Both the position numbers and the translations under genes were made by a program. 36,603 nucleotides of DNA from Planobispora longispora. GTDB lineage: Bacteria > Actinomycetota > Actinomycetes > Streptosporangiales > Streptosporangiaceae. The stretch spans positions 1-36,603 of the forward strand of contig NZ_BOOH01000072.1 of assembly GCF_016863135.1 (NCBI RefSeq), given 5' to 3'. The notes beneath the pieces are model-generated. The model was not told the DNA's origin and made no database searches. It was given only the letters and a program-made list of their open reading frames with translations. Position 1 is the stretch's first letter, and each line of letters starts with the position of its first letter. Positions 12,901-33,454 of the stretch are shown here, in pieces.

Positions 12901-13597
12901 CCGGCAGGTCGGCGTACCAGTCGTAGAACGACAACATGGTGCCGCCCAGCAGCGACACGAACCGGGCGCCGGAGGCGTGCGAGACCATCGACATGGCCGG
13001 GATCGGGGAGAATCCGGCGACCCGGTCCGGGCCGTAGGTCTTGATCGTGTGCACGTGCGCGGCGGCGATCATCTCGGTCGCCTCGTCCCAGGTGACGCGC
13101 ACCAGCCCGCCCTTGCCCCGCGCCGACTGGTAGCGGCGCCGCTTGTCCGGGTCGCCGGTGATCTCGGCCCAGGCCGCCACCGGGTCGCCCAGCCGCGCCC
13201 TGGCCTCCCGGTACATCTCCACCAGCACTCCGCGCGCGTACGGGAACCGCACCCGGGTGGGCGAGTAGGTGTACCAGGAGAACGCCGCGCCGCGCGGGCA
13301 GCCCCGCGGCTCGTACTCCGGCCGGTCCGGCCCCACGCTGGGGTAGTCGGTCTGCTGCGCCTCCCAGGTGATGATCCCGTCCTTGACGTAGACCTTCCAG
13401 GAGCACGAACCGGTGCAGTTCACCCCGTGCGTGGAACGCACCACCTTGTCGTGGCTCCACCGGTCCCGGTAGAAGGCGTCGGCCTGGCGGCCGCCGATCT
13501 GGTGCAGCGTCCGCAGGTCGTCGGAGACCGTCCCGGCGCGCAGATGCCGGCCCAGCCGCAGCAGGGCGTCGTTGACCGGCCCGTCCATGCCCGCCAT
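9902..13597 (-). CDS. narG: Respiratory nitrate reductase alpha subunit
   Basis: The ~1231-residue molybdenum catalytic subunit that reduces nitrate to nitrite at the cytoplasmic side. The N-terminal FS0 cluster motif (THGVNCTGSCSWKVYVKDG), DYPSVGPDRPEYEPRGCPRG, and the cofactor region MLWGSNVPVTRTPDAHYMTE are all present. ETGGRRYSAFTINVEHRKPW and SIHSEYQDNLLMLTLSRGGP are typical C-terminal NarG segments. The start at 13597 (MAGMDGPVNDALL) is chosen because GAGG lies 7 nt upstream; an in-frame ATG at 13648 lacks a site. It is the first gene of narGHJI and follows two DosR-like boxes. It appears intact. Confidence 0.97.
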   Translation of the reverse strand: MAGMDGPVNDALLRLGRHLRAGTVSDDLRTLHQIGGRQADAFYRDRWSHDKVVRSTHGVNCTGSCSWKVYVKDGIITWEAQQTDYPSVGPDRPEYEPRGCPRGAAFSWYTYSPTRVRFPYARGVLVEMYREARARLGDPVAAWAEITGDPDKRRRYQSARGKGGLVRVTWDEATEMIAAAHVHTIKTYGPDRVAGFSPIPAMSMVSHASGARFVSLLGGTMLSFYDWYADLPVASPQMFGDQTDVPESADWWDAAYLMLWGSNVPVTRTPDAHYMTEARYRGQKVVVVAPDYNDATKFADEWMAPHPGTDGALAMAMGHVILREFFVERRVPYFTDYVKRHTDLPFLVRLREHPETGAYVPDKFLTAADLGEESEQAAFKTVLLDAATGEPVVPNGSLGFRYGPEGEGRWNLDLQGVDPALTLDDGEGGSTTAVALPRFDQDGASGGADGVILRDVPVRQVAGHPVTTVFDLMLAQYGVGRENLPGQWPASYDDAQAPYTPAWQERITGVPAAQVVRIAREFARNAEESHGRSMIIMGAGTNHWFHSDTIYRAMLALTTLTGCQGVNGGGWAHYVGQEKCRPVTGWAHMAFGTDWSRPPRQMIGTAFWYLHTDQWRYDTYSADVVASPLASRGAFAGKATADLLSQSARMGWMPSYPTFNRNSLELADEVAASGQEAGPYVAAKAASGELGFACEDPDAPANWPRVLTVWRANLLGSSAKGNEYFLKHLLGAEGAVRAHEAAPEQRPADVTWHEQAPQGKLDLLLSLDFRMTSTTLFSDIVLPAATWYEKHDLSSTDMHPFVHAFSPAIDPPWQTRTDFAAFHAVAKAFSALAKTHLGVRKDVVAVPLLHDTPDEYANPHGVVDDWRAAGTVPVPGRNFPKITVVERDYGAIAEKMAALGPLLDTLGTTTKGLTYQVTAEVERLGRMNGTVRGGVADGRPSLARDVDMCEAILALSGTTNGHLADQGFATLGRRTGTSFDGLADSHKQITFADTQARPVPVTTSPEWSGSETGGRRYSAFTINVEHRKPWHTLTGRQHFFLDHDWIHEAGEALPVYRPPLNMTVLFGEPGIGEGGEQGVDGITVRYLTPHSKWSIHSEYQDNLLMLTLSRGGPNIWMSPADAGRAGIRDNDWVEAVNRNGVVVARAIVSHRMPTGTVYMYHAQERVVDVPKSEISGKRGGIHNSLTRLMIKPTHLIGGYAQLSFAFNYLGPTGNQRDEVTVIRRRSQEVDY

Positions 13598-13758
13598 ATG
13601 TGATCCTCTATCTCTCATCACAGATCGGACATCCCCATCTGTTCGCATTGATCACCACATCCGCCGGGAAATCCGTCGATGCCACCCGGTTCCGGTGCCT
13701 CACGGCATCGGCTGCCTGATGCGGTTAACTTCATCCTGGCCATGGCCATATCCCGCAC

Positions 13759-13799
13759 TTAGGGTCTTTAGTCCCTCGTAACTGGTTCAAAGGCCCCAA
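13759..13799. promoter_or_regulatory. Paired DosR/DevR-like boxes upstream of narG
   Basis: The site at 13759-13778 contains GGGTCTTTAGTCCC and matches 15 of 20 positions of the DosR consensus TTSGGGACTWWAGTCCCSAA. A second, weaker site at 13780-13799 (right half AAGGCCCCAA) matches 13 of 20. The two are 21 bp apart, two helical turns, as in many DosR promoters. They are about 160 bp before the narG start, with nothing else between the nirK-unit terminator and narG that would explain them. Confidence 0.75.
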
Positions 13800-13803
13800 A
13801 AGA

Positions 13804-13831
13804 TCGGCCACCGGCCGGAGCCGGTGGCCGG
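13804..13831. terminator. Hairpin terminator of the nirK unit
   Basis: GGCCACCGGC (13806-13815) and GCCGGTGGCC (13820-13829) form a perfect 10-bp stem with loop CGGA, plus one further C-G pair (13805-13830). It lies 40 bp after the last gene of the nirK unit on the minus strand and just before the nar control region, so it would insulate the two. Confidence 0.75.
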
Positions 13832-13871
13832 AATCGGCACCCTCGGACTCCAGCGACTCGGGGCCGGAGGA

Positions 13872-14309
13872 TCAGGTGGCGGGCAGCGCGGTCGCCAGCA
13901 GCACCACGCCGACCGATCCCACCAGCGCGGTCACCGCCATGGCCCGTGCCAGGGCGGGCCGTCCGGCGCCGGTCGCCCACCCGTGCAGGCCCGCCGCGAC
14001 CATGACCGCGCAGAACAACGCCAGCTTCGCCGCCAGGATCCGCCCGTAGCCCGGATCGCCCAGCGACTCCCAGGTCACCCCCTTGCGCCAGGCCAGCGCC
14101 ACGCCGGTGCCCAGTTGCACCGGCAGGAAGACCGCCCCGGTGAAGACGCCGAACCGGCGCCCGACCGCGCGCATCACCTGCGCGCGCCGCTGCTCGTCCA
14201 GCAGCCGCCGCGCCAGCGGCAGCACCACCAGCGACACCGTCAGCTGCCCGCCGACCCACAACGCCGCCGACAGCACATGCGCGAAGCGCACCACCGCCCA
14301 CCAGGTCAC
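13872..14309 (-). CDS. Four-helix membrane protein (CopD/DUF-type), nirK-linked
   Basis: A 145-residue protein with four predicted membrane helices (WWAVVRFAHVLSAALWVGGQ; AVFLPVQLGTGVALAW; ILAAKLALFCAVMVAAGLHG; AVTALVGSVGVVLLATALPA). A histidine in helix 1 (RFAHVLSAALWVGG) and one in helix 3 (GLHGWATG) resemble CopD-like or heme-binding small membrane proteins, but the family is not certain. The GTG start has GGAGAAG upstream. It is the third gene after the large membrane protein and the NirK fusion, with 31 bp between, and ends before a terminator. It may pass electrons or copper to NirK; this is inference from position. Confidence 0.75.
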   Translation of the reverse strand: MTWWAVVRFAHVLSAALWVGGQLTVSLVVLPLARRLLDEQRRAQVMRAVGRRFGVFTGAVFLPVQLGTGVALAWRKGVTWESLGDPGYGRILAAKLALFCAVMVAAGLHGWATGAGRPALARAMAVTALVGSVGVVLLATALPAT

Positions 14310-14340
14310 GGCGCTTCTCCCTCCACCGCCGCCCGGCCTG

Positions 14341-17016
14341 TCACGGCGCGCTCACCTCGAACAGGCCGTGCGCCCCGCCCTCGGCCTGACGCATCGTGTG
14401 GTCCACCACCGGATAGGTGCCCGGCTCGGGGAAGACCAGTTCGGCGAAACCGCCTTGGGCCGGGGCCAGGTCCAGCACCTGCGCGCCGCCCGGATCACCG
14501 GCGCGCAGCAGGTAGGCGCCCTCCTTGTAGACCGTGTCGAACGGCGCGCCGACCACGTGCAGCGCGGTGCCCGAGCTCGGCCCGGCGGCCACCGCCCAGA
14601 TCCGCACCCGCTCCCCCGCTCTCGCCTTCAGCGGTGCGTGATCGTACCCGGCGGCGGTCCCGTTGAACATCCACCCGTCGGGGCGGCCTTCGCGGATCTT
14701 GGCGACCTGCGCGTCACCGCCCGGCTCGCCCAGGTGCAGTTCGCCCTGGACCAGCAGGAACTCCCGGTCCGCCCTCGCCAGATCCGGCGGATCGATCACC
14801 ACCGCCCCGTACATGCCGCCTGCGATGTGCTGGGTCATCGGCATGGTCGAGCAGTGGTACAGCCACGCCCCGGCGTGCTCGGCGCGGAAGCGGTAGGTCA
14901 GCCGCTCGCCCGGCGCGATGGTTCGCATCACCCCGTCGGGGGCGTTGGCCCCGGCGTGGAAGTCGATGCCGTGGCTCATCGTGCCTCCGTTGACGAACGT
15001 CACCGTGAACACGTCCCCGATCTTTCCGCGCAGCACCGGCCCGGGCACGGTCCCGTCGAACGTCCACACCCGCTGCCGCACCCCGGGCGCGACCTCCCGC
15101 ACGACGCTGTCGTCCACCCGGATCTCCACCGCGTGCTCGGCGCCGCCGGGCGCGGGCTCCAGGGTCGCGTCGTACGGCTTCCACCCCGGCGAGAAGGGCG
15201 CCGCCAGGTCGAGGCGGACGGGGGCGGCGGCCGCCGGATCCGGGGATGCCGCCCGCGCGTCCCCGTCCTCCGCACTGTGCCCGGTGTGCCCGGTTCCAGG
15301 GGCCGCCGCGTCCATCGGCCCGTCCGTGGACCGGGCGAGGGCTCCGGCCGGGACGATGCGCATCGTCATGCCCGCGGCGCGGTGCCCGGCCACGGTGCAC
15401 CAGCCCTCGACCGTCTCCCCCAGCGGCGCCAGCGTCAGCGTCGCGCTCTGCCCGGCGGCCAGCATCGGCGTGCGCTCACCCGTGGCCAGGCGCAGGTCGT
15501 GCCGCTGGGCGTCGGCGTTGGTCACCCGCAGCGTCAGCACCGTGCCCGCCGGGGCCTCGATCACCGCCGGGCGGATGCTCATCCCCGACAGCGTCACCTC
15601 TACCGTCCGGGAGCCCGTGGCCGTCACCGTCGTCGCCGGCCCGGACCCGCCCGTGGCCGCCACGACGACCGCGGCGGCCGTCAGCACGCACCCGGCGGCC
15701 ACCCCGGCCAGCGCGGGCCGGCCCGCCGTACGGCCCGGCCCGCCGTCCCCGGGCTCCGCCGCCCCGTCCCGTGGGACGGCGAGTGCACGCGAGCGGACCA
15801 GCGCGGCCACCGCCAGGATCACGAACGCCGCCACCGAGGCCGCCACCAGTGCCCACCCCAGCAGGAGCAGCGGCGCGGGGACCCGCAGCGCCAGCAGCAC
15901 CACCCCGGCGTTCAGCGCCGCCAGCCGGACGGCCCAGCCGCGCTCCAGCAGCGCCGCGTTCTCCTTGAACCGGGCCGGTCCGCCGCCCAGCACCGCGGGC
16001 AGCAGGTGCAGCAGCGACCCCAGCAGCACCTGCGCGACGAATCCCACCAGCACCAGCGGGATCAGCGGCTCCAGTGCGGCGGCCACCTCGCCCGGCGGGC
16101 GGGTGGCCACGACCACCAGGTCGACGGCCAGCGCCACCTCGAACCAGACGATCGCCGCCCCCAGCGTCCAGGCCGCCCCGGTGTGCGGGCGGCGCGCCCG
16201 CACCGCCTCGGCCAGCGGCGCCGCCGCGGCCAGTGCTCCGGCCGCGTACGCCGCCAGCCCGGCCGCCGCCACCCATCTCAGGTCCGCCAGCAGGCCCGCC
16301 ACGGCCACCGCCAGGCCCGGCGCCGCCAGCCGCAACCCGGCCCGCGACGCCTTACGGGTGCCCTCCGGCATCCGGGTGCGCAGCACCGTCGGCCACAGCG
16401 TGAACAGCGTGCCGAGCACGGTCAGGCCCACCCAGCCCAGCAGGTTCACCTCGGCGTGCGCGGCGTGCAGCCGCTCGTGCGCCGCGCCGTGGCCGACATG
16501 CGCGGCCAGCAGCCCGCCCAGCGTCCCGCCGGCCGCCAGCGCCCCGGCCGCGGCCACGTACCAGCCGATGACGTGGCCGAACCGGCCGGGCAGCGCCCGC
16601 CGTACCAGCATCACCAGCACCGCCGCGTGCCACAGCACGACCCCCACGACCGCGCCCGCGCCGACCGCCGCCACCGGCCACGGGCCGACGGCCACCCCGG
16701 CCAGCACCGCCACCGTCCCGGCGTTCAGCACCGCCAGCCGGGTCAGGCTCCATCGCGGCTCCGGCGTGCGGGCCCGCAGCAGCGCGACGGTGAAATGCTC
16801 GCTCCAGATCAGGATCGCGGTGCTGACCGCCCCCAGCAGGAACACGTGGATCAGCAGCCAGCGCGGCGCGGGCAGCGCCTCACCGGCCAGCGCCACGACC
16901 ACCGTCAGGGCCAGCCAGCCCACCACGATCGCGTTGGCCCGCAGATGCCACGACGCGCGGCGCGGCGGGGCCGCCGTCGGGGGCCCCTTCTCGATGCGTA
17001 TCCCGACCGAGGTCAC
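14341..17016 (-). CDS. nirK: Copper nitrite reductase fused to a polytopic membrane domain
   Basis: An 891-residue three-part protein. Residues ~20-460 form about a dozen hydrophobic helices (e.g. GWLALTVVVALAGEALP, LLGWVGLTVLGTLFTLWPTV). Residues ~470-555 are a cupredoxin with type-1 ligands RHDL...GWCTVAGHRAAGM. Residues ~618-891 are a two-domain NirK core: SHGIDFH (type-1 His, catalytic Asp, type-2 His), WLYHCSTMPM...HIAGGM (type-2 His, then Cys, His, Met of type 1), TALHVVG (catalytic His) and VVDHTMRQA (third type-2 His). All active-site residues are present, so it should reduce nitrite to NO outside the membrane. A usual NirK has ~350 residues. The GTG start follows GGAGG and overlaps the upstream stop. 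Confidence 0.92.
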   Translation of the reverse strand: MTSVGIRIEKGPPTAAPPRRASWHLRANAIVVGWLALTVVVALAGEALPAPRWLLIHVFLLGAVSTAILIWSEHFTVALLRARTPEPRWSLTRLAVLNAGTVAVLAGVAVGPWPVAAVGAGAVVGVVLWHAAVLVMLVRRALPGRFGHVIGWYVAAAGALAAGGTLGGLLAAHVGHGAAHERLHAAHAEVNLLGWVGLTVLGTLFTLWPTVLRTRMPEGTRKASRAGLRLAAPGLAVAVAGLLADLRWVAAAGLAAYAAGALAAAAPLAEAVRARRPHTGAAWTLGAAIVWFEVALAVDLVVVATRPPGEVAAALEPLIPLVLVGFVAQVLLGSLLHLLPAVLGGGPARFKENAALLERGWAVRLAALNAGVVLLALRVPAPLLLLGWALVAASVAAFVILAVAALVRSRALAVPRDGAAEPGDGGPGRTAGRPALAGVAAGCVLTAAAVVVAATGGSGPATTVTATGSRTVEVTLSGMSIRPAVIEAPAGTVLTLRVTNADAQRHDLRLATGERTPMLAAGQSATLTLAPLGETVEGWCTVAGHRAAGMTMRIVPAGALARSTDGPMDAAAPGTGHTGHSAEDGDARAASPDPAAAAPVRLDLAAPFSPGWKPYDATLEPAPGGAEHAVEIRVDDSVVREVAPGVRQRVWTFDGTVPGPVLRGKIGDVFTVTFVNGGTMSHGIDFHAGANAPDGVMRTIAPGERLTYRFRAEHAGAWLYHCSTMPMTQHIAGGMYGAVVIDPPDLARADREFLLVQGELHLGEPGGDAQVAKIREGRPDGWMFNGTAAGYDHAPLKARAGERVRIWAVAAGPSSGTALHVVGAPFDTVYKEGAYLLRAGDPGGAQVLDLAPAQGGFAELVFPEPGTYPVVDHTMRQAEGGAHGLFEVSAP

Positions 17017-18251
17017 CCCGGCCACCTCCCTATCGACGACCCGGTGCGCGAGCGCGCCACCGCGACCGCGCACCCGGCGAACATGAACAGAGCGACCTCC
17101 GCGAGCACCCCGCCCGCCGTGCGCATCCCACCGGCACCGGCCAGGTCCCCTGCGACGCGGACCGCCACCGCGGCGTGCAGCACCGTCAGCGGCAGGTACA
17201 GCACCGGCCGGTACGGCAGGCGCACCCGCAGCACCGCCGGCAGGATCACCGGCGCGTGCCCGAACACCATGGACATCACGAACCCGAGGAACAGCGCGTG
17301 CAGCGCCGCGTCGTACAGGTACGACCCGGCCGCCGGCCCGCCCGCCGCCCACAGCACCCCGGCCGCCGCCAGCCAGCCGTACCCGGCCAGCAGGCACACG
17401 GCCGCATACCGGGGCAGGCCGCGCCCGCGCACCGTGCGGCGGGCGACATCGTGCCAGGCCAGCCAGGCCGCCACCGCCGTCATCGCCGCACCGGCGATCC
17501 GCGTCCCCGCGCCCGGCTGCCACACCGAGGCCAGTGCCCCGGCGCCCAGCACCGCGCAGGCCGCCAGCAGCCCGTCCGAGGCCCCGCGCCGCAGGAACGC
17601 CACATGCGCCAGTTCCAGCCGCTCCCCGGCGATGGTCAGCACGTGGAAGGCGGCGAACCACACCACCAGGTCCGGCACCGGCCGTCCGCCCAGCCACAAC
17701 AGCCCGCCCGCGTACCAGGCCAGCGCCCCGCCCGACTGCACGAGCGTCTCGCGGCTCACCCGCCGGCCCAGCAACGCCGCATACACCCCGACCAGCCAGC
17801 CGCCGCCGGCCGTCAGCATCAGCCGGCCCACCTGCTCGGCCCCGGCCGCCAGCGCCACGGCGCCCAGCGCCGACAGCGCCGGAGCGGCATACCCCCACCG
17901 GCTCCGCAGCGCGACCGCCCGCTCCAAACTGATCAGCGTGCCCAGGAAGCCCAGGGCCATCAGCGGCCCGTGCTGCTCGGTGAACGCCACCGGCGCGGGG
18001 ATCTCGGCGACCAATAGCGCCAGCCCCCCGTACAGGCCGGCCAGCAGGGCGACGGCGGCACCGGCCAGCAGAGGAAGCCGTGCGAGGGCCGGGCGGGCGC
18101 GGACGCCGGATCCGGGCGTCGGGCGCGCAGCGGCCGGGGGCTCGGGAGCCGAGGGCTCGAAGGCCGGGACGTCCTGCGGGGGCGGGCGGCGCCCGCAGGA
18201 CGGTGCCGTCATCGGTTCTGTGGCCACGACTGGGTTCTCTCCGCTGGTCAT
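17013..18251 (-). CDS. Large polytopic membrane protein, NnrS-like by context
   Basis: About 412 residues with some 11-12 membrane helices after a Pro-rich cytoplasmic start. Conserved-looking histidines occur in FTEQHGPLMALGFLGTLISL, WFAAFHVLTIAGERLELAHV and LHALFLGFVMSMVFGHAPVI. These recall NnrS-type or heme-copper-oxidase-like membrane proteins linked to nitrite and NO metabolism, but the family is not firmly identified. Its stop overlaps the GTG of the NirK fusion, so the two are coupled. The start is uncertain: ATG at 18251, a GTG near 18230 with GGAGAG upstream, or ATG at 18212. Likely roles are electron supply to NirK or NO handling. Confidence 0.7.
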   Translation of the reverse strand: MTSGENPVVATEPMTAPSCGRRPPPQDVPAFEPSAPEPPAAARPTPGSGVRARPALARLPLLAGAAVALLAGLYGGLALLVAEIPAPVAFTEQHGPLMALGFLGTLISLERAVALRSRWGYAAPALSALGAVALAAGAEQVGRLMLTAGGGWLVGVYAALLGRRVSRETLVQSGGALAWYAGGLLWLGGRPVPDLVVWFAAFHVLTIAGERLELAHVAFLRRGASDGLLAACAVLGAGALASVWQPGAGTRIAGAAMTAVAAWLAWHDVARRTVRGRGLPRYAAVCLLAGYGWLAAAGVLWAAGGPAAGSYLYDAALHALFLGFVMSMVFGHAPVILPAVLRVRLPYRPVLYLPLTVLHAAVAVRVAGDLAGAGGMRTAGGVLAEVALFMFAGCAVAVARSRTGSSIGRWPG

Positions 18252-18349: not shown

Positions 18350-18369
18350 CCGGGGACCAAAGTCCTTCG
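18350..18369. promoter_or_regulatory. DosR/DevR-like box, nirK side
   Basis: GGGACCAAAGTCC within this 20-bp site; 13 of 20 positions fit TTSGGGACTWWAGTCCCSAA. It lies about 100 bp before the start of the minus-strand nirK unit and 69 bp from the box that serves the divergent PNPOx gene. Confidence 0.65.
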
Positions 18370-18418: not shown

Positions 18419-18438
18419 GAGAGGACTTTAGTCCCTGC
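18419..18438. promoter_or_regulatory. DosR/DevR-like box before PNPOx gene
   Basis: The core AGGACTTTAGTCCC fits 14 of 20 consensus positions, including a perfect CTTTAG centre. Its centre is 44 bp before the ATG at 18473. If that gene is leaderless, this equals the usual activator position near -44. Confidence 0.75.
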
Positions 18439-18472: not shown

Positions 18473-18892
18473 ATGAAACTTGACTCTGCCGGTCTGCAGG
18501 TGCTCTCCCACGGGGAGTGCATGGCCCTGCTGGCGACGACGCCGATCGGGCGGATCGTCTTCACCGACCGCGCCCTGCCGGCGGTGCAGCCGGTCAACTT
18601 CGTGCTGGACGGCATGGATATCGTCATCCGCACCACGGCCGGCTCCAAGCTGGCCGCCGCGACCCGCCGCGCCATCGTGGCCTTCGAAGCCGACGAATTC
18701 GACCCGCAGGGCCGGACCGGCTGGTCGGTGACCGTGGTGGGACACGCGCGGGCGGTGGACGACCCGGTGGAGACCGAGCGGTTGGCGGGGCTGCCGCTGA
18801 CGCCGTGGGCGCCGGGCAGCCGGGAGCATTTCATCGTCATCGCGGCCGAGCAGGTCTCCGGCCGCCGCATCGCCGACGCTGCCGGCGGCTGA
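18473..18892 (+). CDS. Pyridoxamine 5'-phosphate oxidase-like flavin protein
   Basis: A 139-residue split-barrel protein of the Pyridox_ox_2 type. It shows LSHGECMALLATTPIGRIVF (first helix and strand), PAVQPVNFVLDGMDIVIRTT (cofactor-binding strands) and GWSVTVVGHARAVDD. Related actinobacterial proteins bind FMN, F420 or heme and often lack PNPOx activity; some belong to the mycobacterial DosR regulon. GGAAGG lies only 1 nt before the ATG, too close to act as a normal ribosome site. A leaderless start fits the DosR-like box centred 44 bp upstream. It is the only plus-strand gene inside the hypoxia island, divergent from the nirK unit and convergent with the radical SAM gene. Confidence 0.85.
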   Translation: MKLDSAGLQVLSHGECMALLATTPIGRIVFTDRALPAVQPVNFVLDGMDIVIRTTAGSKLAAATRRAIVAFEADEFDPQGRTGWSVTVVGHARAVDDPVETERLAGLPLTPWAPGSREHFIVIAAEQVSGRRIADAAGG

Positions 18893-18973: not shown

Positions 18974-20263
18974 TCACGCTCCGGCGGCCGTGCCGAGGTG
19001 ACCCGCCAGCTCGTCCTGGTAGGGGAAGGTCCCGGGCGTATACGAGCACCAGGGCTCCTCGGCGAAGACGTCACCGCCGGTGGCGTAGGCCCGGGAGCGG
19101 GAGCCGCCGCACACGGTGCGGAACTCGCAGGCTCCGCACCGGCCGGTCAGCCGGTCGGGGTCGCGCAGCGCGGTGAACACCGGGGAGGCCCGGTAGATCT
19201 CGGTCAGTGGCCGCTCCCGGACGTTGCCGGCGGGCAGCGGCAGGAACCCCGAAGGGGAGACCTCTCCGGTGTGGGAGACGAACACCAGGCCGCGGCCGGC
19301 GCCGACGTCGATCGGCGGGCGGCGGGTGCGGGTGGCGCGGACCAGGCCGGAGCGTACGGCGCGCCGCCGCAGGCTCCGGTAGAGCGGCCCCAGGCCGAGC
19401 GCGGCGACGTGGTCGGCGCCGCGCTCGTGCAGGATGTGCCGTTGGATGGCGACGCGACGGAAGTGGTGGGCCTCGGTGGCCTTGACCGGGACGGCGGCTC
19501 CGATGTCGTAGGCGAAGTTCAGCACGTCCTCGGTCTCGGCGGCGGTCAGCGAGGTCAGGTTGCGGCCCCGGCCGGTGGGGACGAGCAGGAACAGGCTCCA
19601 CAACAGCGCTCCGCGGTCGCGGATCAGCCGGGCGATGTCGGGCAGGTCCATCAGGTTGGTGCGGGTGACGGTGGTGTTGATCTGCACTTTGAGGCCGGCC
19701 TCGCGGGCCCGCTGCCAGGCGTCGAGGGTCCGGCCGAACACGCCGCCGAAGCCGCGGAAGTCGTCGTGACGGGCGGCGGTGGCTCCGTCCAGGCTCAGGG
19801 AGATGACGTTCGTGCCGGCCTGACGCAGGCGGGTGAGGCTGTCGGCGGTGAGGGCGGGGGTGGCCGACGGGGAGACCGACGGGGACAGGCCGAGCTCGCG
19901 GGCACGGCGGACCAGGTCGTACAGGTCGGGCCGCTCGAAGGGGTCGCCCCCGGTGATGACGAACAGCGGGGCGGAGCGGCCGAAGGAGGTGATCTGCCGC
20001 ATCAGGCCGACGGCCTCGGCGGTGGTCAGTTCGCCGGGGTCGCGGTCGGGCCGGGCCTCGGCCCTGCAGTGCAGGCAGGCCAGCGGGCAGGCGCGGGTGG
20101 CCTCCCAGATGACGATGAACGGGGCGGTGGCGACGTCGCGGTGGACGTGCCGGACCGGGCGCGGGCGCCGTTCCCCCGCGTCCGGCGCGTCTGCCGCGTC
20201 CGTCATACCAGGGACGGCGGTCTCCCGTCCGGAGGGGGCCGCTGGGTTCGCCGGTGGGTTCAC
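18974..20263 (-). CDS. Radical SAM/SPASM protein
   Basis: A 429-residue radical SAM enzyme. The AdoMet cluster motif is CPLACLHC in IWEATRACPLACLHCRAEAR, followed by the GGDPF motif (FVITGGDPFERPDLYD). The C-terminus has a SPASM-type cysteine set: CGACEFRTVCGGSRSRAY then EPWC, able to hold extra [4Fe-4S] clusters. The overall shape resembles the NirJ/AhbD/PqqE group and the unassigned actinobacterial radical SAM/SPASM proteins found near denitrification genes. Either porphyrin or peptide modification is possible; no precursor peptide is seen nearby. The GTG start at 20263 overlaps the stop of the nitronate-monooxygenase-like gene (GTGA), so the two are coupled and likely act together. Confidence 0.88.
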   Translation of the reverse strand: MNPPANPAAPSGRETAVPGMTDAADAPDAGERRPRPVRHVHRDVATAPFIVIWEATRACPLACLHCRAEARPDRDPGELTTAEAVGLMRQITSFGRSAPLFVITGGDPFERPDLYDLVRRARELGLSPSVSPSATPALTADSLTRLRQAGTNVISLSLDGATAARHDDFRGFGGVFGRTLDAWQRAREAGLKVQINTTVTRTNLMDLPDIARLIRDRGALLWSLFLLVPTGRGRNLTSLTAAETEDVLNFAYDIGAAVPVKATEAHHFRRVAIQRHILHERGADHVAALGLGPLYRSLRRRAVRSGLVRATRTRRPPIDVGAGRGLVFVSHTGEVSPSGFLPLPAGNVRERPLTEIYRASPVFTALRDPDRLTGRCGACEFRTVCGGSRSRAYATGGDVFAEEPWCSYTPGTFPYQDELAGHLGTAAGA

Positions 20264-21846: not shown

Positions 21847-21866
21847 GTAGTGACCAAAGTCCCGAA
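21847..21866. promoter_or_regulatory. DosR/DevR-like box before the NMO-radical SAM pair
   Basis: The best scoring box in the window: GTAGTGACCAAAGTCCCGAA fits 16 of 20 consensus positions, with a complete right half. It is 103 bp upstream of the GTG at 21744. Confidence 0.8.
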
Positions 21867-21977: not shown

Positions 21978-22472
21978 TTACTGCGCCGCGGACAGGACGG
22001 TGCCCGCCGCGACGAGCGCGGCGCCGCTGCCCATCAGCACCGCGCCCAGGCCGATCGCCAGGGAGGTGACCTGCCAGGCCTGGTAGGCGCTCATCAGCGA
22101 GGCACGCAGCGTCTCACCCATGAACGCGGTCTGGCGCAGTTCCGCGAGTTTCTCGTCCTTGCCGCCGGCGGCGTGCAGGTCGGCGCTGATCTCCGAGTAG
22201 CTGCGCCCGCCGGTGGCCTTGCGCACGTTGCCTCCGATCATCTCGGAGAAGACGCGGGCATGGGTGCCGTTCTCCACCCGGCGTCCGGCGTAGCGGCCGT
22301 GCTCGGCGGGCAGGCCCTTCTCCGGGAAGGTGATCTTCTGACGGATGAGCTCGTCGCGGATCTCCTCCTTGCCCCGCATGCCGCGCACCGTCATCACGGC
22401 GCCGGCCGTCAGCATCCCGACGCCGACGCCACCCAGCAGCAGCATCAGCGTCAGCCCTCGTACGTTGTCCAC
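21978..22472 (-). CDS. Two-helix membrane protein of unknown function
   Basis: A 164-residue protein. The N-terminus is a membrane helix (RGLTLMLLLGGVGVGMLTAGA), then a basic/acidic soluble section of ~85 residues (RGKEEIRDELIRQKITFPEK...GGRSYSEISADLHAAGG). A second hydrophobic segment follows near the end (VTSLAIGLGAVLMGSGAALV). The GTG at 22472 is chosen because GAGGAGA lies 7 nt upstream; an ATG at 22508 has no site. I recognise no family with a known function. A DosR-like box 150 bp upstream places it in the same response. Confidence 0.7.
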   Translation of the reverse strand: MDNVRGLTLMLLLGGVGVGMLTAGAVMTVRGMRGKEEIRDELIRQKITFPEKGLPAEHGRYAGRRVENGTHARVFSEMIGGNVRKATGGRSYSEISADLHAAGGKDEKLAELRQTAFMGETLRASLMSAYQAWQVTSLAIGLGAVLMGSGAALVAAGTVLSAAQ

Positions 22473-22616: not shown

Positions 22617-22636
22617 TTCGGGCTGAAAGTCCCATC
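22617..22636. promoter_or_regulatory. DosR/DevR-like box before the two-helix protein
   Basis: TTCGGGCTGAAAGTCCCATC fits 14 of 20 consensus positions. It lies in the gene-free stretch 22473-22800, which otherwise contains a 16-bp duplication and no convincing reading frame. Confidence 0.65.
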
Positions 22637-23435: not shown

Positions 23436-23477
23436 CTGCGGCCCAAAGGCCCTGCCGCGAGGGACCTCCGTCCTCTG
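23436..23477. promoter_or_regulatory. Paired weak DosR/DevR-like boxes before the Ddn-like gene
   Basis: The site at 23436-23455 (12 of 20; core GGCCCAAAGGCCC) and the site at 23458-23477 (11 of 20; core GGGACCTCCGTCC) are 22 bp apart. Each is weak alone; their phase and place match the pairs at narG, the small ORF and dsbA. Confidence 0.5.
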
Positions 23478-26624: not shown

Positions 26625-27076
26625 GGTGTTCGTCCTTGTCGTACTGGTGGATGTGCCCGGGGCACCGCGGCGGTTCCCGCTCTGCCCGGCGTGGATGCAG
26701 GTGGACGGGGCCTCGCGGGACTCGTCGTGTCGGCCGACTCTGCCGGGTGCGGAAAAGGGCGGGGGCCGTGCGGTGAGCCGCCGACCACGTGAGGAAGATG
26801 GCCGCCAGAGGTGATGTGCCGCCTCGGGCGCCGCTTCCATAGCCGTTTTCGTGGTGGCTGTTTTCGTCTTTCCGATTCCACCGCAGAGATCTGGACTTGG
26901 GCAGGGACGAAGGTCCTGCTTGTCGAGGTCTTTCCGCATGTGATCACTGATCGCCGTGCCCCGTCGATGCGGAGTCACACGCCTTGTCCTCCTTGCCGCT
27001 CTCCACCGGATGGGCCCGGATACGGCGGCCCCGGTCCCGATCCACCGACGCGTCGGCCGCCCTCGGCCGCCGGCGG
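26625..27076. other. Intergenic region upstream of narK
   Basis: About 450 bp with no convincing gene. Positions ~26810-26900 are relatively AT-rich (GTTTTCGTGGTGGCTGTTTT), as for a promoter region. A DosR-like box lies at 26901-26920. The region starts just past the hemerythrin-DUF2249 stop; I see no strong terminator there. Confidence 0.55.
26901..26920. promoter_or_regulatory. DosR/DevR-like box upstream of narK
   Basis: GCAGGGACGAAGGTCCTGCT fits 12 of 20 consensus positions and is itself an inverted repeat (GCAGG...CCTGC). It is 277 bp before the narK start in the only gene-free region of that gene. Confidence 0.6.
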
Positions 27077-27889
27077 TCAGGGGCGGCCGATGCGCACCCG
27101 CCACACCTGCGGACCGGACTCGGTGTACTCCCAGGTGAACTCACCGGGGTGCTCGGCGGCGAACTGGTAGTACAGGGGCTTCGGGTCATGGTCGTTGACC
27201 AGTACGAACGCCATGCCGGCGGGCAGTTCCCCGAAGGTGGCGAAGATCTGCGCGTGCCGCTGCGCCGGGACCAGGCGGCGCACGTCGAGCTCGCCGACGA
27301 CGAGCCCCGAACCGCCGCCTGCGCCTTCCGCATCCTCCGCAGCCAGGTCCCGGGCACCGCACCCGCAGCCGCCGCACCCGCAGCCCTGCGGCTCGGCCGG
27401 CTCGGCCGACTCGGCCGACTCGCCGAGAATTTCGTGCATGCCCTCCAGCAGGACGGCGAGATCGACGCCGGCGTCGGCGAGCGCGGGCAACAGCAGCTCG
27501 TTCTCCTTGTTCAGATGCGCCTGGAACAGGGCGTTCAGCGCCGCCGCGGCGGCGACGATCTCTCCCCACGTGTCCGCCTGCTCCAGCTCACCGACCCGCT
27601 CGCGCAGCAGGATGTGCTCGTCGCGCATGGCCCGCACGAGCAGCCGGGTCGCGGGCAGCGTGTCGGCGACCCGGTACAGCGTCTCCTCCTCTGCCGCGGC
27701 GTGCGGAAGCACCTCCTCGGCGCAGAAGGCCACCAGCACCGCCTGGCGGGCGGACGGGGACTGCAGCTTGTCGATGGAGCGCGCGATGGTCACGGCGTGG
27801 TCGGAGACCGTCCGGCCGAGCCGGCCGTGGTGGGTGTGGATCGCCGCCAGGACGGCGTCCTGCGGGCCTGCTGTCGTCTGCGTGGTCAT
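27077..27889 (-). CDS. Hemerythrin-like domain fused to DUF2249
   Basis: A 270-residue cytoplasmic protein. The hemerythrin HHE domain (residues ~15-155) offers candidate di-iron ligands in AIHTHHGRLG, EEVLPHAAAEEETLYR, MRDEHILLRERV and FQAHLNKENELLLP. A linker with GCGCGGCGCGA (four Cys) connects it to a C-terminal DUF2249 domain (ELDVRRLVPAQRHAQIFATF, then AFVLVNDHDPKPLYYQF). Such fusions are common beside denitrification genes and are thought to sense or trap O2 or NO. The ATG at 27889 has AAGGAG 5 nt upstream. It precedes narK and follows cysK on the same strand. Confidence 0.88.
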   Translation of the reverse strand: MTTQTTAGPQDAVLAAIHTHHGRLGRTVSDHAVTIARSIDKLQSPSARQAVLVAFCAEEVLPHAAAEEETLYRVADTLPATRLLVRAMRDEHILLRERVGELEQADTWGEIVAAAAALNALFQAHLNKENELLLPALADAGVDLAVLLEGMHEILGESAESAEPAEPQGCGCGGCGCGARDLAAEDAEGAGGGSGLVVGELDVRRLVPAQRHAQIFATFGELPAGMAFVLVNDHDPKPLYYQFAAEHPGEFTWEYTESGPQVWRVRIGRP

Positions 27890-27999: not shown

Positions 28000-28932
28000 C
28001 TACACGGTGAACAGCGGGGTGCTGAGGTAACGCTCGCCGGTGTCGGGCAGGACCACCACGACGAGGCGGCCCTCGTTCTCCGGCCGCGCCGCGACGACGG
28101 CGGCGGCGTGCAGGGCCGCGCCGCCGGACACCCCCGCGAGGATGCCCTCGGTCCGGGCCAGCCGCCGGGCGACCTCCCGGGCGCCGTCCACGTCGGTACG
28201 GAGCACCTCGTCGTAGACGCCCGTGTCCAGCACCTCGGGTACGAAGCCCGCGCCCAGGCCTTGGATGCCGTGCGGTCCCGGCTCGCCGCCGGACAGCACC
28301 GGGGACTCGGCGGGTTCGACCGCGACCACGTGCACGTCCGGTTTCTTCGCCTTCAGGAAGCGGCCCGCCCCGGTGACGGTGCCGCCGGTGCCGACGCCGC
28401 AGACGAGGATGTCGACCCGGCCGTCGGTGTCGTCCCAGATCTCCTGGGCCGTGGTGCGCAGGTGCACGTCGGGGTTCGCCGGATTGGCGAACTGCTGGGG
28501 CATGAACCAGCCGTGCTCGGCGGCCAGCCCGGTGGCCGCGGCGACCGCGCCCTTCATCCCGGCGGCGGCCGGGGTGAGGACGAGCTCGGCGCCGTAGGCG
28601 GCGAGCAGGGCCCGGCGCTCGACGCTCATGCTCTCCGGCATGGTGAGCGTCAGCCGGTAGCCCTTGGCCGCTGCCGCCATGGCCAGGCCGATGCCGGTGT
28701 TACCGCTGGTGGGCTCGACGATGTGCGCCCCGGGAGTGAGGCGGCCCGCATCCTCGGCCGCCTCGATCATCGCGCGGGCGATGCGGTCCTTGACGCTGCC
28801 GCCCGGGTTGGCGGACTCCAGCTTGGCGACGAGGTCGCCGGGCAGGTCCGCGCCGAAGCGCGACAGCCGGACCAGCGGGGTGCGGCCGATGAGGGACAGG
28901 ACGCCGGGGTGGATCGCGGACACGGCGGTCAT
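28000..28932 (-). CDS. cysK: Cysteine synthase A
   Basis: A 310-residue PLP enzyme making cysteine from O-acetylserine and sulfide. The PLP lysine is in [40 protein letters not shown] is the substrate-loop motif, [17 protein letters not shown] binds the PLP phosphate, and [16 protein letters not shown] is the usual C-terminal segment. The ATG at 28932 overlaps the cysE stop (ATGA). A GTG at 28923 with AGGAG 9 nt upstream is also possible. With cysE it forms a two-step cysteine operon. Its presence inside the hypoxia island suggests supply of cysteine for iron-sulfur clusters or thiols under stress (inference). Confidence 0.95.
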
Positions 28933-29501
28933 CTCCTGATGGTCGTGCGGGGAAGCGGGAGCGGGCGGATGTTCGAGGCGGCGGTGGTGACGGTGGTGAC
29001 GGCAGAGGGCGGGGCCGAGACCCGGGCTCCGGCCGGCACGTCGGTCAAAACCAGGGCGTGGGCGCCGATGGAGGCGTCGTCGCCGATGTGCACGCGTCCG
29101 AGGATCGACGCGCCGACGCCGACGGTGACCCGGTCGCCGAGGACCGGGTGGCGGGCGGCGCCCTTGGCGTCGGAGTGGAAGCCCCGGCCGCCGAGGGTGA
29201 CGTGGTGGTAGAGCGTGACGTCGTCGCCGACGACGGCGGTCTCGCCGATGACGACACCGGCCCCGTGGTCGATGAAGAGCCCGCGCCCGATGCGGGCGCC
29301 GGGGTGGATCTCCACGCCGGTCAGGGCGCGGGCGAGCTGGGCGATCAGGCGGGGTGCGAACGGCACGCCACGCCGGTGCAACCGGTGGGCCAGGCGGTGG
29401 GCCCACACCGCCCACAGGCCCGGATACAGCACGGCTTCGAGCACGCGGGCGCCGTACAGGGCGGGGTCGCGACGGCAGGCGGTACGGAGGTCTTCGAGCA
29501 T
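28929..29501 (-). CDS. cysE: Serine O-acetyltransferase
   Basis: A 190-residue left-handed beta-helix acetyltransferase that makes O-acetylserine from serine and acetyl-CoA. The hexapeptide region is clear: [40 protein letters not shown] and [20 protein letters not shown]. The catalytic histidines are in FIDHG and YHHVTLGG. It is the short form of CysE, as in many actinobacteria. It is translationally coupled to cysK. Upstream lie a hairpin (29555-29589) and a small leaderless ORF. Confidence 0.95.
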
Positions 29502-29822: not shown

Positions 29823-29865
29823 GCAGGGACCTTGGTCCCGGGGGCGGCGGGACCTTCGGCCCCCG
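29823..29865. promoter_or_regulatory. Paired DosR/DevR-like boxes
   Basis: The site at 29823-29842 contains GGGACCTTGGTCCC (13 of 20). The site at 29846-29865 contains GGGACCTTCGGCCCC (13 of 20). They are 23 bp apart and lie upstream of the small ORF at 29766 on the minus strand, after a terminator. Confidence 0.7.
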
Positions 29866-29962: not shown

Positions 29963-29966
29963 GTCT

Positions 29967-30413
29967 CTACCTCCCGACCGCGGGCTGCTGCGGGGTGATG
30001 CGGTCCCAGGCCTCGATCGACAGCATGATCACCGAGGCGGGGAACAGGCCGTGCTCCTCGCTGTCGATGTGCCGGTGCAGCTTCGTGAGCGCCTCCAGCA
30101 CGGCCGTCCAGTCCGGAGCCGTACGGTCGATCGCACCGAACACCCCGTGGATCTCGTCATGCTCGGCGCAGAGCCGATCCACCGCCTCGGTCAGCGACCC
30201 CTCGGCGCGCAACTCGGCGAACAGCCCGTTCTCCTCGGTGGCGGTGTGCGGCAGCAGCCGGGCGAGCAACTCATCAAGGAGGGAGGTGGCCTCGCCGCAC
30301 CGATCGTCGTTGATGGCCCGGCGCAGCGCCCCGGCGGTCTCCTCGATCTGCCAGTGCTCCTCGGAGAGCCTGCCGATCAGCGGGAAGTCCCGGCAGCCGC
30401 AGTAATTGCACAT
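29967..30413 (-). CDS. Hemerythrin domain protein
   Basis: A 148-residue single-domain hemerythrin. It begins with a small cysteine cluster, MCNYCGCRDFPLIGRLSEEH. Candidate di-iron ligands occur in LSEEHWQIEE, LLPHTATEENGLF, AEHDEIHGVF and LHRHIDSEEHGLFP, matching the four-helix bundle. It could bind O2 or NO in the cytoplasm; the CNYCGC head may add a redox or metal function. It ends at a long terminator. A DosR-like box lies ~80-100 bp upstream of the start. Confidence 0.9.
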   Translation of the reverse strand: MCNYCGCRDFPLIGRLSEEHWQIEETAGALRRAINDDRCGEATSLLDELLARLLPHTATEENGLFAELRAEGSLTEAVDRLCAEHDEIHGVFGAIDRTAPDWTAVLEALTKLHRHIDSEEHGLFPASVIMLSIEAWDRITPQQPAVGR

Positions 30414-30495: not shown

Positions 30496-30515
30496 ATAGG
30501 GCCGTTGGTCCCGGC
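30496..30515. promoter_or_regulatory. DosR/DevR-like box before the hemerythrin gene
   Basis: Contains GGGCCGTTGGTCCC; 13 of 20 consensus positions. It lies in the only gap upstream of the ATG at 30413. Confidence 0.65.
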
Positions 30516-31144: not shown

Positions 31145-31765
31145 CTACCCGAACAGGGCGGAGCCGTACTTCGTCACCACCGCCAGGATCAGGACCAGGA
31201 GCCAGATGGTGACGGCGATGGCGTCCAGGTCGGCCTCGACGAACCGCGCGGCCGCCGCCTGCGCGCGGGGCGGCAGGAACAGGTTGCCGTCGCGGATGTT
31301 GACGTGGGTGAGCGTGGTGAACACCAGCGTCGTGGAGACGGTCACCAGCAGGCACCACGGGCACAGCGCGCCGATGACGAGCATCGACTGGGAGAACAGC
31401 CAGTAGGCGAAGATCACACCGAGGGTGTAGACCGCCTGGGCGGCGAACATGAACCAGCGCGGGAAGCGCACCCCGCCCAGACTCGCCACGGCGATGGTGA
31501 TCACGACGGGTTCGGCCACCAGGCCCAGGAAGGCGTTGGGGAAGCCGAACAGCTGCGCCTGCCAGGAGGTGGCGACCGTCCCGCAGCTGATGACGGCGTT
31601 GATGTCGCACGACAGGCTGGTGCCGGGGTCGGCCGCCAGACGCAGCGCGTCGGCCGAGAGCACGAAGGAGGCGGCCAGGCTCAGGCACGCCGACACCAGC
31701 ATGGTCCCGAACAGCCAGGCGTTCGAGTGCCGCAGCCCGTGCAGGCGGGCCAGGAGCACGGCCAT
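31145..31765 (-). CDS. Vitamin K epoxide reductase family protein
   Basis: About 206 residues with five membrane helices. The redox centre is CPWC in LVIGALCPWCLLVTVSTTL, with a second cysteine pair in SLSCDINAVISCGTVATSWQ, as in bacterial VKOR. It reoxidises a DsbA-type partner and passes electrons to menaquinone. The partner gene overlaps directly upstream: the DsbA-like stop overlaps this start (ATG 31765, or GTG 31768). The pair matches the DsbA-VKOR arrangement of mycobacteria. It makes disulfide bonds in exported proteins without oxygen. Confidence 0.93.
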   Translation of the reverse strand: MAVLLARLHGLRHSNAWLFGTMLVSACLSLAASFVLSADALRLAADPGTSLSCDINAVISCGTVATSWQAQLFGFPNAFLGLVAEPVVITIAVASLGGVRFPRWFMFAAQAVYTLGVIFAYWLFSQSMLVIGALCPWCLLVTVSTTLVFTTLTHVNIRDGNLFLPPRAQAAAARFVEADLDAIAVTIWLLVLILAVVTKYGSALFG

Positions 31766-32532
31766 CACTCGCCCTCGGCGGCGGTGACGGCCGCCGTCAG
31801 CGGCCCGGTCGTGTACAGGTCACCGGTGAACACCTCACCGTTGATCTTCACGGTGGGCGTGCCCTGGATGCCCGTCTGGAACACCGCGGCCGTCGAGGCC
31901 TCGACCCACGGCTGGAAGACCCGGCCGGCGAAGAGGTTCACGACGTCCTGCGGCACTCCGGCGTCGCGGGCCAGCTCGGCGATCTCGTCGTCGGACAGGC
32001 CGTCGCCGCCCTCGGCGGGCTGGTGGGCGAACAGCGCGGTGTTGAAGGCCAGGAGCTTGCCGGGCGCGTGGTCGGCCACCGTGGCGACGGCGTTGGCGGC
32101 CCGCGTGGAGTAGTCCGTCCCGTTGGACATCCGGTCCAGGAACGACAGCGGATACAGCTCCAGGCGCACCGTGCCGTCGGCGACCAGGCGGTCCAGCTCG
32201 CCGCTGTTGGCCCGCTCGAAGCGCCCGCAGAACGGGCACATGTAGTCGAGGTAGACCTCCAGCTTCACCGGGGCGGCGGCGTCGCCGACGGCGAGGGCTC
32301 CCCCGGCCGTGGCGATCGCCGGGGTGGCGCCCTCGCCCTGCGATGCCGCGGCGGTCCGGGAGTTCCCGCTCCCCGCCGCGTTGATCAGACTGATCACGAT
32401 GGCCACCAGGAGACAGCCGATGATCACTCCGCCGCCTGCGACGATCGCGCGGCCGCGCTTCTTGCGGCGGCGTTCGGTGGCGGCCCGGGCGTCGCGTAGT
32501 TCCCGGGACTTGGTGCGTGTCTGCGTGCTCAT
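31765..32532 (-). CDS. DsbA-family membrane-anchored thiol oxidase
   Basis: A 255-residue protein. A basic cytoplasmic start (ERRRKKRGR) is followed by one membrane helix (GVIIGCLLVAIVISLINAAG), then a thioredoxin-fold domain outside. The active site is CPFC in EVYLDYMCPFCGRFERANSG. The cis-proline loop is GIQGTPTVKING. It introduces disulfides in exported proteins and is recycled by the overlapping VKOR gene. The ATG at 32532 has AGGGAG upstream. Two DosR-like boxes lie 150-195 bp upstream. Confidence 0.92.
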   Translation of the reverse strand: MSTQTRTKSRELRDARAATERRRKKRGRAIVAGGGVIIGCLLVAIVISLINAAGSGNSRTAAASQGEGATPAIATAGGALAVGDAAAPVKLEVYLDYMCPFCGRFERANSGELDRLVADGTVRLELYPLSFLDRMSNGTDYSTRAANAVATVADHAPGKLLAFNTALFAHQPAEGGDGLSDDEIAELARDAGVPQDVVNLFAGRVFQPWVEASTAAVFQTGIQGTPTVKINGEVFTGDLYTTGPLTAAVTAAEGE

Positions 32533-32685
32533 GCGCTGTTCTCCCTTGGTCCTGCCGGGGTGGACGAAGGGCCGGGCGGCGTGCGGCCGCGGCGTCGTCC
32601 ACATCCTCGATCGGCGCCGGTCGCGGTCTGAAGTCCGCTCCCTCGGGCGCTCACCGTCAACCTTCGTCAGGTCGCCGGTGATCCG

Positions 32686-32727
32686 CTGGGGCCGAAGGTC
32701 CTTTACCGGCGCGACCTCCGTCCCGGA
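32686..32727. promoter_or_regulatory. Paired DosR/DevR-like boxes before dsbA-VKOR
   Basis: The site at 32686-32705 (core GGGCCGAAGGTCC, 13 of 20) and the site at 32708-32727 (core GCGACCTCCGTCCC, 13 of 20) are 22 bp apart in the gap between the CBS-BON gene and the DsbA gene, both on the minus strand. Confidence 0.65.
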
Positions 32728-32762
32728 TCGGGCGCCCGGGCCCCGGGCGGCGCCCCCGATCC
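32725..32762 (-). terminator. Bulged hairpin terminator after the CBS-BON gene
   Basis: GGATCGGG (32725-32732) pairs with CCCGATCC (32755-32762); an inner CGCCC/GGGCG stem continues it, with a 5-nt bulge. It lies 26 bp past the CBS-BON stop on the minus strand. Confidence 0.6.
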
Positions 32763-32788
32763 TGCGGGGCCTTCGCCCCTGCCGGTGT

Positions 32789-33454
32789 TCAGTAGAAGAT
32801 CGGAGCGACGACGGTGCCGTCGCGGGTGACCTCCAGCTCCGACACGACGCCGACGACGCCCTCCACCCGGCGGACCGCCTCCACCAGCGGTGTGACCTGG
32901 GAGGCGTGCCCGACCCGGCCGCCGACCGTCACCACCCCGTCCCGCACGTCGATCGTGAACCCCACGGGGTCGAGTCCGCACTCCTCCCGCACCGCCTGCT
33001 CGACTTCGGTGCGCAGTTCCTCCGCCGGACGGGTGAAAACGCGCAGCAGGTCGCCCTGGTGCACGGTGCCGACCATCCGGCCGGTGACCGGATCGATCAC
33101 CGGCAACTGCTTGATCCGCCGCTCGTGCATCAACCGGGCCGCCTCCCGCACCGGCGTGCCCGGCGTCACGGTGATCGCCGGAGCGCTCATCAGCTCGGCG
33201 GCGACCACGCCCGCCGCCTTGCGCAGTTCCTGGCGCCGCCGCTCACCCGCGAAGAAGGCGTGCCGTACCCGGCCCGTCTCCTTCAGCAGCAGATCGTCCT
33301 GCGACACCACGCCCACCGGCCGGCGGTCGGCGTCCAGCACCGCCACCGCCCCGACCGCGAAGCGCCGCATCACCGCGACGATCTCCGCGAAGGTCGCCTC
33401 CAGCCGCACCGCGATCGCCACCCGGCCCATCACGTCCCCGACCTGAGTGCTCAT
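32789..33454 (-). CDS. CBS-pair and BON domain protein
   Basis: A 221-residue cytoplasmic protein. Two CBS motifs form a Bateman module (DVMGRVAIAVRLEATFAEIV...VGVVSQDDLLL and ELMSAPAITVTPGTPVREAA...VGTVHQGDLL), which usually binds adenine nucleotides. A C-terminal BON domain follows (EVEQAVREECGLDPVGFTID then VVTVGGRV). CBS-only proteins such as mycobacterial Hrp1 belong to the DosR regulon; proteins of this two-part type are frequent in such dormancy islands. The start has GGAG 7 nt upstream. I did not find a clear DosR-like box in its own upstream region. Confidence 0.9.
   Translation of the reverse strand: MSTQVGDVMGRVAIAVRLEATFAEIVAVMRRFAVGAVAVLDADRRPVGVVSQDDLLLKETGRVRHAFFAGERRRQELRKAAGVVAAELMSAPAITVTPGTPVREAARLMHERRIKQLPVIDPVTGRMVGTVHQGDLLRVFTRPAEELRTEVEQAVREECGLDPVGFTIDVRDGVVTVGGRVGHASQVTPLVEAVRRVEGVVGVVSELEVTRDGTVVAPIFY

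Follow-up and report, generated by a model that had tools for sequence, protein, structure and literature searches.

The 36,603-bp contig C72 (NZ_BOOH01000072.1) of Planobispora longispora, whose genome comprises 8.84 Mb over 120 contigs, was analysed over its whole length, hereafter called the window. It carries an island of genes for nitrate respiration (narGHJI and narK), a copper nitrite reductase (NirK), hemerythrins, F420/FMN enzymes, cysteine synthesis and disulfide formation, together with a sensor kinase gene, and the gaps between these genes contain 20-bp palindromic sites resembling those of the response regulator DosR/DevR (OsdR in Streptomyces coelicolor). A first-pass annotation had listed 14 such boxes and proposed that they tie the island into one response to hypoxia and nitric oxide (NO). 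The cis sites, a haem kinase encoded among them, one DosR orthologue encoded on another contig and the recurrence of the boxes in related genera point to a DosR/DevR-type regulon, and its response to hypoxia or NO stays a prediction.

DosR-type boxes in the gaps of the island

Intergenic gaps were drawn with our own simple gene caller, not taken from the annotation; those of the island total 3.65 kb (3,645 positions). As genome background we used 32 hand-picked 20-kb stretches with 106.9 kb of gaps, two of which contain pattern matches, and our genome-wide statements rest on these stretches, on pattern searches and on a model search. Since a plain count of matches to the 20-mer consensus is weak below 13/20, boxes were judged with three weight matrices: one from the 25 OsdR site sequences in Table 1 of PMC5069765 (S. 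coelicolor), which owes nothing to the window; a wider relatives' matrix of 75 sites from gaps of related loci (L103-L123); and a strict matrix restricted to the 56 of these sites in L105-L123, from which Planobispora and Planomonospora were excluded. Because the relatives' matrices and the window have orthologous promoters in common, the S. coelicolor matrix serves as the cleaner control.

All 14 sites were present, with 15, 13, 13, 14, 16, 14, 12, 11, 12, 13, 13, 13, 13 and 13 matches out of 20 in coordinate order. At a threshold of 11/20 the island gaps are mildly enriched (50 of 3,645 positions, versus 305 of the 32,939 other positions of the window), and by this count the weakest sites (11-12/20) are noise, common by chance. 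At 13/20 or better, 12 positions fall in the island gaps and 9 in the rest of the window, where the other gaps of the genome would predict 1.98 in the island gaps (Poisson p 1e-6). The S. coelicolor matrix found seven island-gap sites of at least 8 bits in 3.65 kb versus 16 in the 106.9 kb of background gaps, a 13-fold richness relative to the sampled gaps elsewhere in the genome (p 2e-6), and its top three positions in the whole window, 30498, 32688 and 29848, correspond in register to sites of the first-pass list. With the strict matrix, 11 island-gap sites reached 10 bits where 0.31 were expected, all of them among the 14, leaving 22617 (8.6 bits), 32708 (5.8 bits) and 13780 (1.6 bits) below that threshold. 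Two sites absent from the first-pass list, 32763 and 33599, reached 9.7 and 10.7 bits with the same matrix. Random sequence of similar composition scored far lower: with the wider matrix, the island gaps had 13 sites of at least 10 bits, and at most two after dinucleotide shuffling (300 shuffles).

The sites lie roughly 45-355 bp upstream of their genes, those of cysE more than 330 bp from the start codon. The first-pass annotation placed them in nearly every promoter gap: 9 of the 15 island gaps of at least 30 bp hold a 10-bit site, and the six empty gaps include one of 31 bp, one of 53 bp and one between convergent genes. Upstream of the kinase and hemerythrin-DUF2249 genes, however, the gaps have no site of even 5 bits (relatives' matrix). 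Their supposed rarity outside the island was borne out within the window, where no gap site of 12 bits lies beyond it (relatives' matrix); elsewhere in the genome, contigs C79, C38, C86 and C55 are also box-rich.

Four pairs of the listed sites are spaced by 21-23 bp (13759/13780, 23436/23458, 29823/29846 and 32686/32708). Around strong sites in general, secondary sites of at least 3 bits occupied 17 of 158 flanking positions at an offset of 22 bp, six at 21 and five at 23, and none of the remaining offsets between 12 and 89 had more than five. In these figures, orthologous promoters and reciprocal pairs enter repeatedly. The tandem layout would fit cooperative binding, which has been described for DevR at tandem sites in Mycobacterium tuberculosis (PMC4973870). 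What argues for 13780 and 32708 as candidate sites is solely this spacing and their partial conservation.

Alignment with the four nearest loci was tried for 16 sites, including two that the first-pass list lacked (Table 1). The box before the NMO-like gene, fully identical in three of these loci, matches at 16/20 in the fourth, L104. Among 80 NMO loci, sorted into groups by hand on the basis of their record titles, a box of 12 bits (strict matrix) no more than 400 bp upstream of the NMO gene occurred in 9 of 23 Streptosporangiales-type loci, in 5 of 47 other actinobacterial loci (among which Nocardiopsis L122 was placed) and in none of 10 non-actinobacterial or unassigned loci; L105-L123 also served to train the matrix. 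In five of the 14 box-negative Streptosporangiales-type loci (L107, L110, L111, L114 and L121) the NMO gene stands immediately after narI, so that a promoter of its own would not be needed. Box-bearing nar, nirK, ppox and hemerythrin promoters were seen in Nonomuraea, Actinomadura and Planomonospora loci.

Sensor kinase, regulator and boxes on other contigs

The identification of the kinase as DevS/DosT-like held up. It has two GAF domains followed by HisKA_3 and HATPase domains (Pfam), and its first GAF domain matched DevS (PDB 2y8h, E 2.5e-49) and DosT (2vzw, E 4.5e-49), with equivalents of His149, the haem ligand, and of the distal Tyr171, both with roles described in PMC4082495, at the aligned positions. 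Relatives of this kinase are encoded on C86 (65% identical) and C38 (a partial match of 68%).

A DosR orthologue is encoded at C38:49723-50358, with DevR (3c3w, E 5e-78) as its best PDB match. The positions of the phospho-acceptor Asp54 and of Thr82, Lys179, Lys182 and Asn183 are conserved relative to that structure (numbering counted by hand), the last three being DNA contacts of the DevR recognition helix. Of the eight DosR matches in the genome at E 1e-40 or better, no other exceeded 49% identity. The role of Thr82 in DevR is described in PMC4973870. The dosR gene has a box of its own, with 11.2 bits and 76 bp upstream of the called start; one small open reading frame (ORF) separates the gene from that of a universal stress protein (L033:3355-4224), and C38 has 16 gap sites of 10 bits (relatives' matrix). 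In Planomonospora G018, dosR and nmo lie on one contig about 82 kb apart. Planobispora siamensis has two close DosR copies (90% and 87%).

Boxes on other contigs were sought with a model based on 35 sites from other genera. It scored 150 of 3,082 first-look candidates, among which 24 strand matches corresponded to 17 distinct sites: six in the window, five on C79, two on C38 and one each on C86, C55, C21 and C35. On C79, boxes precede the genes for an AdhP-type dehydrogenase, AdhE and an S30AE-type ribosome protein, and one lies between GAPDH and a CBS-BON gene. A transporter gene at the head of those for arginine deiminase, ornithine carbamoyltransferase and carbamate kinase has another box 340 bp upstream of its called start, and pyruvate formate-lyase, which is encoded with its activating enzyme at L034:2076-5241, has one of 14.4 bits about 90 bp upstream of its likely start. 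The same contig carries a phosphoketolase gene and a quinol NO reductase gene (L034:7072-9435; PDB 3ayf, E 4e-152). Three box-like sites also occur there within C79:27970-28036 (L034:12970-13036), at 27970, 27992 and 28015 (7.7, 3.1 and 8.3 bits; spacings of 22 and 23 bp). Boxes elsewhere precede universal stress protein and CBS protein genes. A 21-bit box containing GGGACTAAAGTCC lies at C29:11873 (L020:6874) before a putative succinate dehydrogenase/fumarate reductase membrane-subunit gene, an identity read from the translation of a gene with no Pfam match at E 1e-6. A search of the genome for NosZ gave no match, nor did it in control genomes, so that absence is not shown.

Genes of the island

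The coordinates of boxes and genes are collected in Table 1. NirK occupies the C-terminus of a long membrane fusion that matches copper nitrite reductases in PDB at E 6e-42. In the alignment with 1kbv it has His/Cys/His/Met and His at the positions of the type 1 and type 2 copper ligands. The membrane half (16006-16566, minus strand) matched the haem-copper oxidase family faintly and below threshold (20.9 bits), which would fit an NnrS-like nature.

Table 1. Boxes and genes of the window; fractions are identical positions in related loci.
Feature	Coordinates	Strand	Evidence and remarks
DosR-type box, strong	13759..13778		upstream of narG; 20.7-21.4 bits; 19/20 and 17/20 in two Planomonospora loci
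Weak companion box	13780..13799		21 bp from 13759; 1.6-3.6 bits; 16/20 and 13/20 in two Planomonospora loci
DosR-type box, strong	18350..18369		between nnrS-like/nirK and ppox; 17.6 bits; 16/20 in Planomonospora L103
DosR-type box, strong	18419..18438		45 bp before ppox; 21.2 bits; 18/20 in Planobispora siamensis and Planobispora takensis
DosR-type box, strong	21847..21866		before NMO gene; 21.5 bits; 20/20 in Planobispora siamensis, Planobispora takensis and Planomonospora L103
DosR-type box, marginal	22617..22636		8.6-10.7 bits; 16-19/20 in three relatives
DosR-type box	23436..23455		before Ddn-like gene; 11.4 bits; not alignable in four nearest loci
Tandem DosR-type box	23458..23477		22 bp from 23436; 10.5 bits; not alignable in four nearest loci
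DosR-type box, strong	26901..26920		upstream of narK; 18.4 bits; not alignable in four nearest loci
DosR-type box, strong	29823..29842		upstream of cysE; 20.5 bits; best of genome-wide model search
Tandem DosR-type box	29846..29865		23 bp from 29823; 10.4 bits
DosR-type box, strong	30496..30515		before hemerythrin gene; 17.5 bits; window's best with S. coelicolor matrix
DosR-type box, strong	32686..32705		upstream of dsbA-vkor; 16.2 bits; 18/20 in two relatives
Weak tandem box	32708..32727		22 bp from 32686; 5.8 bits; 17-18/20 in two relatives
Extra box, absent from first-pass list	32763..32782		9.7-11.0 bits; not alignable in four nearest loci
Possible box, absent from first-pass list	33599..33618		155 bp before CBS-BON gene; 9.8-10.7 bits; not alignable in four nearest loci
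narGHJI operon	6893..13597	-	NCBIfam equivalogs TIGR01580, TIGR01660, TIGR00684, TIGR00351 above cut-off
narI; narJ; narH; narG	6893-7612; 7624-8250; 8247-9902; 9902-13597	-	parts of narGHJI
CopD/DUF2269-like membrane protein	13872..14309	-	weak Pfam/NCBIfam matches, below cut-off
NirK fusion (N-terminal multi-helix membrane part, cupredoxin domain)	14341..17025	-	TIGR02376 E 1e-40, below cut-off
NnrS-like membrane protein	17013..18251	-	likely start 18251; identity read from translation, no family match
PPOX-family flavin/F420 oxidoreductase	18473..18892	+	Pfam PF12900 E 2e-30
Radical SAM/SPASM protein, AhbD/NirJ-like	18974..20206	-	TIGR04053, 477 bits (cut-off 395)
NMO-like flavoenzyme	20260..21744	-	PF03060 E 1e-17
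Small membrane protein	21978..22472	-	no Pfam/NCBIfam match; behind marginal box 22617
F420H2-dependent (Ddn-like) reductase	22801..23379	-	PF04075 E 2e-9; TIGR00026 below cut-off
DevS/DosT-like haem GAF-GAF-HisKA_3-HATPase kinase	23500..25194	-	Pfam; PDB DevS/DosT matches
NarK-type nitrate/nitrite transporter	25380..26624	-	likely start 26624; TIGR00886 E 8e-60, below cut-off
Hemerythrin-DUF2249 fusion	27077..27889	-	PF01814, PF10006
cysK (28000-28932) and cysE-like (28929-29501)	28000..29501	-	PF00291 E 5e-75; hexapeptide transferase repeats PF00132
Hemerythrin	29967..30413	-	PF01814 E 6e-16
VKOR (31145-31765) and DsbA/thioredoxin-like (31765-32532)	31145..32532	-	PF07884 E 2e-34; PF13462 E 3e-18
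CBS-BON protein	32789..33454	-	PF00571 E 2e-23, PF04972 E 3e-9

The NMO-like gene is 90-91% identical to the copies of Planobispora siamensis and Planobispora takensis, and its product, encoded beside the radical SAM protein, which resembles the haem enzymes AhbD/NirJ, has a Cys-bearing tail. We considered this pair (18974-21744) as a rarity and rejected the idea, NMO being widespread (at least 421 relatives confirmed); of the 80 NMO loci retained, 15 have a radical SAM relative close to the NMO gene. That the pair has a hypoxic, haem-related role is a guess. The small membrane protein is 90% identical in two Planobispora loci, 68-90% identical across Planobispora and Planomonospora, and 50-59% identical in two more distant loci. 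Between the DosR-type box and cysE lies a 35-residue ORF (29662-29766, minus strand) ending in DERCPTA and 80-91% identical in L101, L102 and L103; it resembles a leader peptide, perhaps one for cysteine-responsive attenuation. At the other end of the window, a gene for a CsoR-type metal-sensing repressor (6596-6877, plus strand; PF02583) adjoins narI, with a relative also near the island in the Planobispora siamensis and Planobispora takensis loci, and an FAD monooxygenase (4237-5784, plus strand) scores above the curated threshold of NF033145, the family of rifampin monooxygenases.

A probable DosR-type regulon, its rivals and its possible reach

Judged from the DNA, the island is probably a single large section of a DosR/DevR (OsdR)-type regulon, a reading to which we assign a probability of about 0.85. 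It extends a known type of control, with unusual breadth, and is not a new system. Several observations weigh against this reading. Two of the 14 sites (13780 and 32708) are near background with the strict matrix and 22617 is marginal; five of the 16 sites for which alignment was tried (23436, 23458, 26901, 32763 and 33599) had no alignment in the four nearest loci; and the relatives' matrices were partly trained on orthologous promoters. A simple pattern gave 53 strand matches in the whole genome versus 187 for a backward control word; the pattern had been derived from sites of the window itself, and the excess of the control may reflect composition; allowing one mismatch gave 199 versus 173 and no discrimination. 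The kinase gene's own gap is without a box (relatives' matrix), as is that of the quinol NO reductase on C79. Finally, dosR lies outside the window and is unlinked to the island in this assembly, and Planomonospora venezuelensis has the island and the kinase (L103) with a best DosR match of only 43% identity, which may be due to an assembly gap or to loss.

That the boxes are chance palindromes is a natural suspicion at a GC content of 66-77%, where the weakest sites (11-12/20) are common by chance, but for the strong sites the shuffles, the other gaps of the genome, the independent S. coelicolor matrix and the conservation all refute it, and we give this explanation practically no weight. An improbable alternative accepts the boxes and assigns them to another LuxR-type response regulator, or to one that shares them with DosR. 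The genome has 97 GerE-domain matches, one of them a regulator on C58 that is 49% identical to DosR and adjoins a GAF-type histidine kinase, and Planomonospora venezuelensis keeps its island without a close DosR; yet the boxes agree with published DosR/OsdR sites, one stands before dosR itself, and the parts of C58 that were covered, with no gap site of 10 bits over 14.1 kb of gap sequence, do not count as box-rich. Somewhat less unlikely, though still doubtful, is a weaker form of the regulon in which the sites belong to DosR and only part of the island responds, the cysteine, VKOR/DsbA and NMO genes being mainly under other regulators. The leader ORF between box and cysE, conserved in three relatives, would suit such control, for example by cysteine, as would the distance of the cysE boxes from the start codon. 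Against this weaker form, the boxes of cysE and NMO are among the window's four best (strict matrix), the latter identical in three relatives.

The closest known counterpart of the island is the OsdR/OsdK (DevR/DevS) regulon of S. coelicolor (SCO0198-SCO0219), which has the same type of box (e.g., AGGGACCTTCGGCCCC) and the same families of kinase and regulator (PMC5069765, Table 1). The predicted regulon in that table comprises narG2HJI, narK with a hemerythrin, PPOX, a nitroreductase and stress proteins, so the nitrate core of our island (narGHJI, narK, PPOX and hemerythrin) was already known and the difference claimed by the first-pass annotation applies only to the remainder. Relative to the entries of Table 1, the additions in Planobispora are NirK and its NnrS-like partner, the radical SAM-NMO pair, CysEK, VKOR/DsbA and the F420-type enzyme, plus boxes before pyruvate formate-lyase, AdhE (the table lists an alcohol dehydrogenase, not AdhE by name) and the arginine deiminase operon. 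The regulator gene lies inside the island in S. coelicolor and outside it in Planobispora. The dormancy regulon of M. tuberculosis under DosR/DevR uses the same families of regulator and kinase, whereas, compared in outline, the Planobispora set stands apart by its denitrification and fermentation genes. We recognised no description of a DosR regulon with NirK in Streptosporangiales by title or start of abstract in searches of the open-access literature.

From the observed sites, kinase, regulator and their conservation we infer the signal, the phosphotransfer, the binding and the direction of control as follows. The haem GAF kinase (23500-25194) would sense low oxygen or NO/carbon monoxide through the state of its haem and phosphorylate the single close DosR orthologue encoded on C38. 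Phosphorylated DosR would then bind the palindromic boxes, with consensus AGGGACYWWNGTCCCT and often in tandem pairs about 22 bp apart, and activate nitrate reductase, nitrate/nitrite transport, the copper nitrite reductase with its NnrS-like partner and hemerythrin, as well as the F420/FMN enzymes, cysteine synthesis, VKOR/DsbA and the fermentation genes elsewhere. Because NirK makes NO and the DevS/DosT family senses it, the product of this pathway probably feeds back on the kinase. The sign of the feedback could be either, since in S. coelicolor, where DevR activates narG2 under NO-dependent control with NO sensing, PMC10552308 reports both activation and inactivation, depending on the NO level.

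The boxes before dosR and before genes for pyruvate formate-lyase, AdhE, the arginine deiminase operon, universal stress proteins and CBS proteins make the regulon look like a general programme for anoxic living and survival. In enterobacteria, Fnr and NarL exert anaerobic control over nitrate respiration, pyruvate formate-lyase and AdhE, with boxes and sensors that differ from those of DosR; the Planobispora boxes share these target functions, and DosR would fill the corresponding role. A tentative extension, which we hold at somewhat less than even odds, is that DosR in Planobispora and its relatives is a global anaerobic regulator of the Fnr kind. One haem-kinase/DosR circuit would then govern the passage of nitrate via nitrite to NO, mixed-acid fermentation (pyruvate formate-lyase and AdhE), energy from arginine deiminase and thiol/disulfide repair, with NirK-made NO feeding back, and mycobacterial dormancy would be a derived use of it.

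The island and its boxes provide a testable map of targets for relatives of the tuberculosis dormancy regulator in free-living actinomycetes, including the prediction that an NO-responsive circuit controls an NO-making enzyme. They also bear on the 'anaerobic paradox' of Streptomyces (PMC5069765), as some relatives of that genus may put a full anaerobic programme under DosR.

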